From NCBI GenBank assembly GCA_025266875.1, contig JALLLT010000046.1:248001-312000 (forward strand): 64,000 nt of DNA, in the 5' to 3' direction. This DNA comes from Fennellomyces sp. T-0311 (Eukaryota; Mucoromycota; Mucoromycetes; Mucorales; Lichtheimiaceae). Below the pieces are notes generated by a model that did not search any database, was not told where the DNA came from, and saw nothing but the letters and a program-made list of their open reading frames with translations. The translations under genes and the position numbers were made by a program. Each line of letters opens with the position of its first letter. Within the stretch, counting starts at the first letter, position 1. This document shows positions 60,171 to 64,000 of the stretch, one piece after another.

Positions 60171-63100
60171 TTATTTGCCAGTACGACGCCAGCCATCCTC
60201 GTCAGGAGCGGAAGCACCACCAGCTTGACGGTGGCGAGGGCGCCATGGTTGCGTAGCAGGCTGTTCATCACGCGACTCACGGGCAGGGGGACCACGTCGT
60301 TGAGTTGACCATGCACCATCACCACGGCTACCCATACGGTCACCATCGCGACCAAAACTACGGTCATTATCGCGACCAAAATTGCGTTCACCTCTACGGC
60401 CAAAGTCGCCACCACTACCGGCACCGCCACGACGATCACGCATACCGCCGAATGATGAAGTACCAACAGGTCGGCCAGTGCGCCAGTTGTCCTCAGCAGG
60501 TGCAGCATTCGCAGCAGCAGCAGGAGTAGCACCAGCCTGTTGTCTACGCAAAGCGGGGGGTACGTAGGCACTGCCAGTAGCACGGGCAGGAGGTGCTGCA
60601 GCAGAAGCTCGCTTGGCCATCTTTTCTTCAATTTCGCGTTCGCGTTGTTGCTGCTTGCGCAGTTGTTCTTCTTGTTTTCTATATCAAAGGATTAATTATC
60701 ACTTTCAATTTTGTTGTTCGCTTAAAGAAACGTACTTGTTGTATTCTTCGCGCTCTGCCTTCTCTCTGGCAAGTCGAGCAGCCTTTTCAGCAGCTTCACG
60801 CTCTTCGGCTTCTCTGCGTTGTCGCTCTTCCTCTTCGGCGCGCTTACGCTCAGCTTCTTCGGCTTCACGCTTCCGGATGAGCTCTTCACGCTTAGCACGC
60901 CATGCGGCAATGCGCTCTTGCTTCTCCTGTTCAATGGCCTCATCAACAGCACGGCGCTGAGCTTCCAAGATATTTTCTAACTTGGTCTCTTGCTTCTTCT
61001 TGTATGTGGTAAAGTCATCCATCATACGCGATAGACGAGCCTTGATCTTCATGTTCTCTTCATGCTGTGTCTTGGATGACTGGAGTTCGGCCTTGCGAGC
61101 AGCTTCATAGAAGCTCTTGTCAGCCTTTTGTTGACGTTCGTAATCCTTCTCCAGGAGAGGAATCTCTTCCTTTCGGTATGCACGTTCGGTGTGATCCAAG
61201 CGCTTGCCGATCTGCTTGAGACGGTCGCTCAGTTCGCGCTGTTCGGTCTGGAGACGTGTGACCTTCAAGTCCAACAACGTCTTGACATCAGAGTTTTCAA
61301 TCTCTTCAGGCTTGAGTTGCAAACCAGTCTTGGCTGTGATTTCTTCGGCGATACGCTTGGCTTGATCGCGTTGAATTTCTTCCTGAACACGCTTCTTGCG
61401 TTCCTCCTCACGACGACGCTGCTCTTCTTCCAGACGCTTCTTCTCAGCCTCGGCCTTCTTGGCGGCAGCAGCGGCCTTTTCTTGAGCCGCAAGCTTCTCC
61501 TTGCGAGACAATTCAGTCTCAATGATTTCCTTGCGACGTTCAATCAAGGTCTTGCGCTCGAGGGTAGCCTTGTGCTCCTTCTCGATACCCTTGATGGCAC
61601 GTTGAAGAGCCTCCTTCTTGGATTCTGCGGCGTTAGCCTTGACAGCAGGATCGATCATCTGAACAACAGCATGGAGACTGTTACCAAGACGAGACAGCTG
61701 AGTGCGCATGAGGTCAGCTGGCGATGACTGAAGTTGGATACCCTCTGTGACGGTGTCTTTGGGAGGGGCAAACAGGTCAGTCTCGAACATCAAGCTCTGG
61801 GAAGAGTGATCGATACGGATGTTGAGTTCACCACGCTTGCAGCCGTTCATGATGAACTTTTCAATGGTGGCAGCGTCGTAGTTGTATGGTGCGGGGAAAG
61901 AGGCAAGCTTAAGAACAAAGTCCAGCTTGACGGTGGTGTAGACCTGGGACAGCTGCTGCAACAAACGGGTGAGGATGACTTGATGGAGCGGGCGGACATA
62001 TTTGGCCATATCAGCGTCTTCGGAAAGCTTGGTCATGATGGGGTTGATCTTTTTGCAGATGGAGAGAGGGTGGAACTGCACTTCAAGAATGTTGTACAGG
62101 TCACGGATCTCAGGTCGGACACGCGACAAGATGTTCTTGTTGAGAGCTTCCTTCAATAAACCAGTGCGAGTGGGGTGTTGGTACAGGCCCATCAGCATCG
62201 ACAAACGGTTGAGTTTCTGGATGCGGTGCTCATCAGCTTCGACGTAGCCGGGGCGGGTCTTGGTCGTGGTGATGATAGGGATGGCGAGTGCAGAGAGCAA
62301 GACAATTGAAGCCATGCGCGACTGTTCCTCATCGGTCAAGTTCTTGTTGATGATACGTTCGATAGTGGAGTAGCTGTTCCAAGCGGCGGAATGGAAAAGA
62401 TAATCCTCGCTGACCATAAAGATCTTGGTGAGTTTTTCATAATAGTTAGCCATCATGACAGGCTTAGGAGGACGCTTGGAGGTTGTCAGCAGAGTGTGAA
62501 TATCCTCAACCGACTTGAAGGCTTCCTGCCACAATTCGAGTTCGGCAGCGGCGTTGAGCTGGGTGAAGCGGGCATCAAGGTATTGTTGCAGCGTTTCGGG
62601 ATCGTTCAAGTTGATCGAATGAGGCTGGTGCGAGTACTTTGACATGTTTTGGAAGTGATTGCGCAAAATCTCGCACAAGCGACGGAACTCGGTCTTACGT
62701 GCGTAAGTCAAGCAGAACGAGAATGCCTTGTTGGTAACCGAATGATACAACGTTTCGAGACGAGCATTGTTGCGAAGCATATCGAGAACCGTACGATACG
62801 CCTCCCACAAAAACTTGAGCCAGGGCGTGACGACCGCGCGATCAGTACGGTCTTTGGTCTGTTCGCCGCTGACGGTGCTGAGCATGATAGATTCAGGTGT
62901 TTCCGAGGCTTCGAGATCATCAATATATTCGACGGCAATCTGATCTGCCTTGGCGCGTGCTTCAGCAACCTTTTGTTCCGAGAGCTCGAGAAGTTTGTTG
63001 ATAATAGTCTAGAGCATTTTTTTGTTGAGTTAATTGTTCTTTCTTTCTTGAACGTCATTACGTGCTAACCTCGATGCTGTGGACACTCGTGTTCTGGGCA

Positions 63101-63391
63101 ATGTTACGGTACTGATGGAGGCCTTCCTTGACCATCTTGCCCTTGCGCAGAATAACGCAAAGCTCAATGAACTTGAGCATAATGGGCTCCATCACATTGA
63201 GCGCATAGCTGCGAGAACGCTTCGACAGAACAACTTCATGAAGGGTCTGCAATGCGACGGCATCTTGACCGGCGGCGCACAACTCTAAATCCGTCCGTTA
63301 ATCATCCATCCGTTCATCCATCCATCGATCCAGCCATACCTTCAGCTCGCTTAAGAGCGTTGTCTGGCTTGACAGCGTAGAATGGAGCCAT
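60171..63391 (-). CDS. TIF32: Translation initiation factor eIF3 subunit a
   Basis: The largest eIF3 core subunit, needed for 43S and 48S complex formation. Four exons (63340-63391, 63070-63284, 60736-63008, 60171-60678) give 1015 residues. The start MAPFYAVKPDNALKRAEE is the conserved eIF3a start. RKGMVKEGLHQYRN-type helix (KGKMVKEGLHQYRNIAQN) and SAYDLARYNN-like FLWEAYRTVLDMLRNN follow. The PCI region is around residues 320-500 (QVILTRLLQQLSQVYTTV). The next 270 residues are a long Lys/Glu/Arg coiled coil. The C-terminal 150 residues are Gly/Arg/Asp-rich (RGGAGSGGDFG). The exon 3-4 junction keeps the KKQEEQLRK run. An in-frame open region extends upstream of 63391, but family conservation supports the start given. 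Confidence 0.95.
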
Positions 63392-63860
63392 TGTCGGCTT
63401 GGTTAGAGGGTACGATGGTGGAGGCACCAGAGGGGGCGACTTGGGGACCACCGTCAAACTCCGCAGTCGCCTTTGATCATCGTTCATGCATGTTTCGCCA
63501 CTATGATGCAGCAGCAACTTCTGGTTCAGTACTTTGCTCCATGGCAGTGGTATCCATGACAATCAATAGATATTTCATCAATACTCTACAGTAATCTCTG
63601 TAACTTCTTATGCGATGCGCAATCTAACTTTTTGTGTTACGTATCTTGTTTAAATATCGATCCCATAAGCATCAGTTGCAGGCATTAATTTACAATTTTC
63701 GTATTTTACGACAATGGGATTCATATTAAAGTGTTATACCAATACCCATCGAAAAATCAGACGTTCTATACTACTTTAAATCCACCGTCACGGGGGAGGC
63801 AAAAAGCACCTAGCGCTGGTGTTCCTTCAATCGCTCCATGGAGGCAGCGAGTTGGAAGGT
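63392..63860. other. Sequence between eIF3a and the Fanzor-like fragment, including a possible broken coding piece
   Basis: On the minus strand an ATG at 63557 opens 18 codons (MDTTAMEQSTEPEVAAAS) and then a stop. One base out of frame, a Pro/Ser-rich piece (MNDDQRRLRSLTVV...PPSYPLTKPT) continues to the eIF3a start codon, in frame with it. The two together read like the N-terminus of one protein with a frameshift near 63500. From about 63563 to 63860 I see no coding; it is the stretch where a guide RNA of a Fanzor element could lie. All of this is tentative. Confidence 0.3.
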
Positions 63861-64000
63861 TTAGTCGTGGGAGCGGGAGAAGGGTGGGATGGGTAAATTA
63901 TTGTGAGATACAGCTTTCGAAAGGCCACTGACAGCGATGTTGAATGCTGCTGCTGCATCACGGTTGAAAGTATTCGCATGGTGGAGAGGACAGTCCGGAT
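63861..64000 (-). CDS. C-terminus of a TnpB/Fanzor-like RuvC nuclease, cut by the window edge
   Basis: Partial frame of 45 residues plus stop (63861-63863), entering from beyond the right edge. It begins PDCPLHHANT, where C-x2-H could be the second half of the family's zinc finger. FNRDAAAAFNIA follows directly, the RuvC-III motif of TnpB/Fanzor proteins (usual form NRDxNAAxN[IL]), with the catalytic Asp present. A short Pro/Ser/His-rich tail follows. TnpB and eukaryotic Fanzor proteins are RNA-guided DNA endonucleases carried by transposons; Mucorales carry many copies. Identification rests on one motif and its zinc-ligand spacing, because the body of the protein lies outside the window. Confidence 0.6.
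   Translation of the reverse strand, partial: PDCPLHHANTFNRDAAAAFNIAVSGLSKAVSHNNLPIPPFSRSHD

Follow-up and report, generated by a model that had tools for sequence, protein, structure and literature searches.

Fanzors are eukaryotic relatives of CRISPR nucleases and are studied as compact RNA-guided nucleases. Most Fanzor1 proteins are described as 600-700 aa long (PMC11423790), and some as about 800 aa (PMC10711439). According to Bao and Jurka, Fanzor and TnpB proteins share the motif D-X(125,275)-[TS][TS]-X-X-C4-X(5,50)-RD (PMC3627910), while DPG at RuvC-I and a Glu six residues before the first CxxC are given as features that distinguish Fanzors from canonical TnpB (PMC10711439). Bao and Jurka also described the CRe Fanzors, which are carried on Helitron2 elements and show duplications where the 5′ end is altered (PMC3627910). 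For TnpB and for SpuFz1, the Spizellomyces Fanzor of known structure, the RNA of the right end is reported to run 14-15 nt into the flank, with CA left of the element and CATA as the target-adjacent motif (TAM). No literature on Fanzors in Mucoromycota was found within a limited collection of papers.

Here we analysed a stretch of 64,000 nucleotides of Fennellomyces sp. T-0311, a fungus of the Mucorales and Lichtheimiaceae (the window, C124:248001-312000), against the whole genome of 45.6 Mb in 182 contigs. At its right edge the window very probably holds the 3′ end of a Fanzor1 gene residing in a multicopy DNA transposon; the intact form of this gene has five exons and encodes 1,357 aa, and the element inserts directionally after (C)CTTTTT.

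A Fanzor C-terminus at the edge of the window

The translated minus strand of the window (63861-63998) gives a protein end PDCPLHHANTFNRDAAAAFNIAVSGLSKAVSHNNLPIPPFSRSHD, then a stop. Once read beyond the window edge, this frame amounts to 253 aa in all and carries GIDPG (RuvC-I), NEYRSSKTCPEC (the RuvC-II Glu and the first zinc half), CTNPDC, and FNRD (RuvC-III). A Pfam scan of the genome contigs placed a Cas12f1-like_TNB (PF07282) match of 26.6 bits at C124:311936-312127, that is, window 63936-64127, the cut-off being 26.3 bits; the 253-aa frame scanned alone scored 25.5 bits, slightly below it. The initial annotation had proposed a Fanzor/TnpB-family C-terminus with a retained catalytic Asp, and both the FNRD of RuvC-III and the profile search that it had suggested for this frame agree with that. 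RuvC-I, RuvC-II and the first zinc half, predicted to lie upstream in the same frame, were found within about 200 residues; RuvC-II reads NEYRSSK, with the Glu six residues ahead of the zinc finger. The zinc ligands, by contrast, are not of the unusual CxxH type that had been suggested. They form an ordinary C4 ribbon, CPEC...CTNPDC, and the aligned Spizellomyces Fanzor has CTNPNC where CTNPDC stands here. The CPLH taken for a zinc half was rejected as such: the Cys in it belongs to CTNPDC, where it is the second Cys and the last zinc ligand, and the window edge splits this motif.

Table 1. Features at the right edge of the window (window positions unless a contig is named)
Feature	Position	Strand	Remarks
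eIF3a_PCI_TPR-like Pfam matches	63058-63282, 60705-62885		E=4.7e-23, E=3.5e-113
eIF3a start codon (MAPFYAVKPDNALKRAEG)	63389..63391	-	read by eye; element 360 bp away
Right flank, host DNA upstream of eIF3a	63717..63751	-	would serve as guide under the TnpB/Fanzor rule
Right terminus of the element, ...GTAGTATAGAACGTCTGATTTTT	63752..63823	-	99% match at C124:311752-311823
Fanzor1 last exon, 3′ part	63861..64000, on to about C124:312622	-	RuvC-III FNRD; TAA 63861-63863
Cas12f1-like_TNB (OrfB zinc-ribbon) match, part inside the window	63936..64000	-	26.6 bits; frame alone 25.5

The window copy (locus L009) is itself broken: it lacks the region around intron 1, has a TAG at model codon 925, and ends in an early TAA at codon 1258 (63861-63863), 51 nt before the stop position of intact sister copies. 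Such defects (a TAG in frame, a premature TAA and an internal deletion) are what one would expect of a chance motif or of a dead relic without significance for any family. We give this reading practically no weight. In the same genome PF07282 has 17 matches, of which 5, that of the window copy among them, exceed the cut-off, and the last-exon DNA has 29 matches, fragments included, so the motif is not a chance one; moreover, there are three intact sister copies, purifying selection and conserved relatives, which argue against a relic. For the Fanzor family the relic reading is refuted, and it is true only of the window copy.

The intact gene encodes an unusually long protein

In a gene model built by homology, which is longer than the models deposited for these loci, five exons separated by GT...AG introns join into one open frame of 1,357 codons at loci L010, L011 and L012, three of the 12 near-full-length copies; stops or frameshifts occur in the other nine, among them the window copy. 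The RuvC-I Asp is residue 1110, so that 1,109 residues precede it. The three copies exceed the usual Fanzor1 size of 600-800 aa, which is a size range and no definition, and encode a protein roughly double the length that is usual for Fanzors in the reports cited above. Purifying selection acts on the long N-terminal part: in the three pairs that can be formed among the intact copies, dN/dS is 0.29, 0.42 and 0.38 for residues 1-640, and 0.31, 0.37 and 0.32 overall. No reproducible Pfam match was obtained for this part, PF07282 being the only profile to match more than one of five members (E 0.1), and an AlphaFold2 model of one relative, P0002, computed from four sequences, had a mean pLDDT of 38 and was unusable.

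Related proteins are found in other fungi and in a metagenome. P0004 from Circinella umbellata, with its 1,415 aa, covers the whole architecture and is about 40% identical; 40% identity also holds over 96% of residues 1-660. The others are Zychaea P0001 (763 aa), Circinella minor P0002 (975 aa, ending before RuvC-II), Zychaea P0005 (702 aa, partial) and a metagenome relative, P0003. The Circinella and Zychaea proteins (P0001, P0002, P0004 and P0005) are alike in architecture to the Fennellomyces protein as far as each reaches, with 34-45% identity; they are listed as hypothetical proteins. P0004 differs in reading TDKY where others have NEY or TDEY, with Lys in place of the RuvC-II Glu; this protein, full-length in other respects, may be a Fanzor that is dead or has been repurposed.

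Fennellomyces sp. T-0311 itself has five deposited proteins that match the family (contigs C150, C98, C139, C103 and C90). The models at these five loci, P0006-P0010, are 419-469 aa long and are listed without Pfam domains; since they are short and carry no domain, the Fanzors seem to have gone unrecognised in the annotation.

Three of these models end after exon 2 (P0007 and P0008) or soon into exon 3 (P0006), and the 763 aa of Zychaea P0001 begin within the part encoded by exon 3. This could also mean that roughly the first 640 residues form a transposon gene of their own and that the Fanzor is an ordinary protein of 600-750 aa starting in exon 3 or 4. Such a split is improbable. P0004 is a single annotated protein of 1,415 aa that spans the whole architecture, P0002, P0005 and P0006 cross the exon 2/3 junction, the spliced frame is continuous in three copies, and residues 1-640 are constrained as is the remainder. 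One long gene is the model retained below.

Relation to Fanzors of known structure

A single-sequence search found SpuFz1 as a weak match (E 0.3). With a profile built from four relatives, three from other fungi and one metagenomic (A1), SpuFz1 was matched at E=6e-5, the next PDB match having E 1.2; another profile, A3, gave E 0.0027. The profile-SpuFz1 alignment runs through DEY..S..CPxC...CTNPxC...NRD. In the protein of L012 the motif of Bao and Jurka is present, with D1110, SS 1262-1263, C1266, the last Cys at 1298 and RD at 1308-1309; the landmarks of the intact protein are D1110 in DPG, CPEC 1266, CTNPDC 1293 and FNRD 1306. Both the DPG (GIDPG) and the alternative Glu (NE-YRSSKT-CPEC) that distinguish Fanzors from canonical TnpB were found. 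The PF07282 scores of single proteins were below the cut-off, 22.0 bits for spliced L012 and 18.6 bits for P0004.

The protein thus resembles the Fanzor1 proteins SpuFz1, GtFz1 and PpFz1 in the DPG of RuvC-I, the Glu six residues before CxxC, the C4 ribbon, the CTNPxC (as in SpuFz1), the RD of RuvC-III and its location on a transposon. It differs from them in its length of 1,357 aa and in that the TDG motif, reported from the WED domain of Fanzor1, was not seen here; at the expected place, as positioned by judgement, there is RLTYVNKYQVRVLG (VNK). We conclude that the window-edge gene is a genuine Fanzor1, broken in the window copy, from a lineage of unusually long Fanzors. Judging from its motifs, the intact protein would be an RNA-guided nuclease.

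Two families of copies and their short derivatives

Among the 29 genomic matches of the last-exon DNA, 17 cover 652-653 of its 653 bases at 93-100% identity. The loci compared also number 17: 13 belong to family A (12 near full length, and L019, which is 5′-truncated) and four, L022-L025, to family B. Family A copies have a common unit of about 4.8 kb, of which about 275 bp are missing in L009 and L021, and a different stretch in L020. L016 (C13:846664-847314) has a 142-bp inversion within the RuvC-bearing exon. No second gene was found within the element, and a scan of locus L009 with Rfam gave nothing at the gathering threshold.

The family B protein, from an approximate splice, is 39% identical to that of family A. 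The bodies of A and B do not align in blastn apart from the left ends (a 325-bp B relic aside), and yet 9 of the 11 left ends of B type are 95-97% identical to A over its left ~75 bp. Right ends of B number 35 (one being the C124 duplicate of that in C114) against 11 left ends, a rough comparison, as the left ends were sought with a family A query. Five end pairs are spaced 2.0-2.2 kb apart, and the gene body is absent from them judging by this spacing; two of them, read in part, are of family B. The spread of these short derivatives suggests movement in trans.

Ends of the element and its target site

On the right, the flanks of different copies diverge after TTTTT (63752-63756); on the left, TTTTT is directly followed by AGGCGTTCTAACGG... 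The element closes with short inverted repeats (AGGCGTTCTA and TAGAACGTCT) and a T5 string, and its terminal sequences read, left to right, AGGCGTTCTAAC...GAACGYCTGATTTTT. CTTTTT precedes all 15 tabulated A left ends and all nine B left ends read, always on the Fanzor sense strand, so the orientation is fixed in 24 of 24; position -7 is C in 11/15 A and 9/9 B left ends. These 24 come from 31 matches, one duplicate having been dropped and six weaker or partial ones left unread; the left flank of L009 (C124) is that of L021 (C114) and was removed from the target counts.

Ten of the 13 two-ended A copies have an intact 5′ end (first base A or G) and no duplication past TTTTT, save for two more shared bases in L013 that could be due to chance. 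L011, L012 and L014, whose 5′ ends are altered, carry a second copy of 8, 6 and 9 right-flank bases immediately behind TTTTT, and the duplications join the element through a short shared sequence. Since TTTTT stays upstream of the duplication in copies without the first bases of the element, CTTTTT is taken to be the target. The junction of L019, 5′-truncated deep inside the element, shows neither TTTTT on the left nor a visible duplication, and runs counter to a strict TTTTT rule. The five B-derived elements with both ends read have no duplication.

When the flanks of 13 copies were joined, paralogous empty sites were found for two, L017 and L018. Around the joint, their length agrees with that of the joined flanks to one or two bases, and they contain one T-tract. 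L018 has at least 12 paralogues, and the five that were aligned all read TTTCT against TTTTT in the joined flanks, so either the target copy had TTTTT or some of the T's came with the element. The one paralogue of L017 is 84% alike and departs near the junction.

Candidate transposition machinery

Pfam scans of five ORFs of L009 and of five aligned proteins revealed no transposase. The genome has 44 Helitron_like_N (PF14214) matches, and the open frames that hold several of them are about 1,400-1,800 aa long; Helitrons are thus numerous in this fungus. None of the 31 left ends listed lies within 20 kb of the 44 Helitron_like_N matches listed, and no Helitron partner sharing the 118-bp left end was found.

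In its T-tract insertion, lack of a target site duplication (TSD) and T-string ends, with duplications in the three copies whose 5′ ends are altered, the element behaves as Helitron2 and Helentron elements do. The inverted repeats lie directly after TTTTT at the 5′ end and 7-8 bp from the 3′ end, T5 included; the asymmetric repeats of Helitron2/Helentron lie 0-4 bp from the 5′ end and 20-60 bp from the 3′ end, and the 3′ position is therefore different here. For the left-end DNA the folds had z -1.57 in A, where the hairpin is formed without the repeat, and -1.81 in B, where it uses the repeat; for the right-end DNA, z was 0.07 (A) and -3.47 (B). The 3′ hairpin is upstream of, that is, internal to, the 3′ inverted repeat.

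As described by Bao and Jurka (PMC3627910), Chlamydomonas CRe-1, -2 and -3 likewise insert into a T-tract, have no TSD when the 5′ end is complete, and show a TSD right after TTTT when it is altered, similar to what we see here. They also share an excess of 3′ over 5′ ends, a spliced Fanzor1 and the absence of a transposase of their own. Unlike the CRe elements as described, the present one has no Helitron found with the same ends, a nearly terminal 3′ repeat, and a left flank extended to CTTTTT. Helentrons and FoHeli1-2, of the Helitron2 group, are in the accounts cited (PMC4067079, PMC5148889) alike in their T-rich target, their T-string boundary or ATTTT end, the lack of a TSD, short inverted repeats and hairpins; the element differs from them in having no RepHel gene and in the placement of the 3′ repeat and hairpin. 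In its mode of insertion, the element resembles the Helitron2-borne Fanzors, with a different 3′ end and with no transposase tied to it.

The main rival on the question of machinery is a Crypton-like tyrosine recombinase, by which a circle with the junction TGATTTTTAGGCG would recombine with a genomic CTTTTT. It is in keeping with the single T-tract of the empty sites, the T5 at either end, the fixed orientation and the lack of a TSD in most copies, and Crypton-associated Fanzors have been reported (PMC10711439; MCi-2A). Against it stand the altered 5′ ends, where duplications of 6-9 bp behind TTTTT join the element via a short shared sequence, and the 35 right ends of B versus 11 left ends (a rough count made with an A query), which look like one-ended Helitron2 insertion. 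We consider such a recombinase a real but minor contender. A DDE transposon with short terminal inverted repeats and a 5-bp TTTTT target duplication would account for the inverted repeats at both ends and for T5 on both sides; a T5/A5 duplication should, however, occur both ways, and with T on the same strand in 24/24 left ends this explanation is very unlikely. The closest likeness, to Helitron2, is the one followed here, and the element may move in trans by Helitron2/Helentron-like or other machinery.

Insertion beside eIF3a and the assembly of the contig

The suggestion of the initial annotation that an element had inserted near eIF3a was borne out, the right end of a mobile element lying just ahead of the eIF3a start codon (Table 1). 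On the eIF3a side, inside the window, there is no sign of assembly trouble. To the left of the element, C124 and C114 differ by 16 one-base indels and zero substitutions over 6.6 kb, and the next 2 kb further left are 100% identical; in the element body the two differ by about 2% substitutions. Captured upstream DNA or a segmental duplication, that is, a transposed unit of more than 11 kb present in C124 and C114, was considered and rejected, as there are only indels left of the element. From the sequence comparison, C124 beyond the left end of the element is a probable assembly mis-join at a repeat; alternatively, the identity of C124 and C114 may reflect a very recent duplication. C124:316224-326000 (L009, L055, L057), in the part compared, which reaches as far as C124:325000, equals C114 apart from 1-bp indels. 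A family B relic lies just left of the element at C124:316455-316779 (minus strand of L009), and in C114; if the mis-join reading is right, this relic is native to C114.

Discussion

By analogy with TnpB and SpuFz1, transcription of the right end of the element would yield a guide-RNA scaffold that continues into the right flank. The putative scaffold would end about the right terminus of the element (63752..63823), and the guide of the window copy would derive from the region upstream of eIF3a. The TAM would be the (C)CTTTTT of the left flank, and by cutting the empty site the nuclease would keep the element there. The RNA fold of the right end is unremarkable (z -0.17 and -0.01). The short derivatives show the same CCTTTTT, and so the transposition machinery alone may explain the motif.

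A bolder and rather doubtful idea is that the N-terminal extension of about 700 residues, which has no Pfam domain, supplies an extra activity, possibly transposition, such that one protein both mobilises and cuts. It is prompted by the fact that A and B, at about 39% protein identity, keep the extension together with nearly identical left ends, and that no separate transposase with A/B ends was found. If true, a Cas9-sized Fanzor of the Lichtheimiaceae would insert its element into CTTTTT and cut the empty site with a guide derived from the flank.

The unusually long Fanzor lineage on a T-tract-targeting element is a new form of the known Fanzor1. As the deposited models are short fragments without a domain name, such genes may be overlooked elsewhere. 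The copies predict a target motif, (C)CTTTTT, and guide sequences, which are directly testable, and the rough doubling in size of a conserved lineage raises the question of what the extra domains buy: guide length, specificity, partner proteins or transposition.
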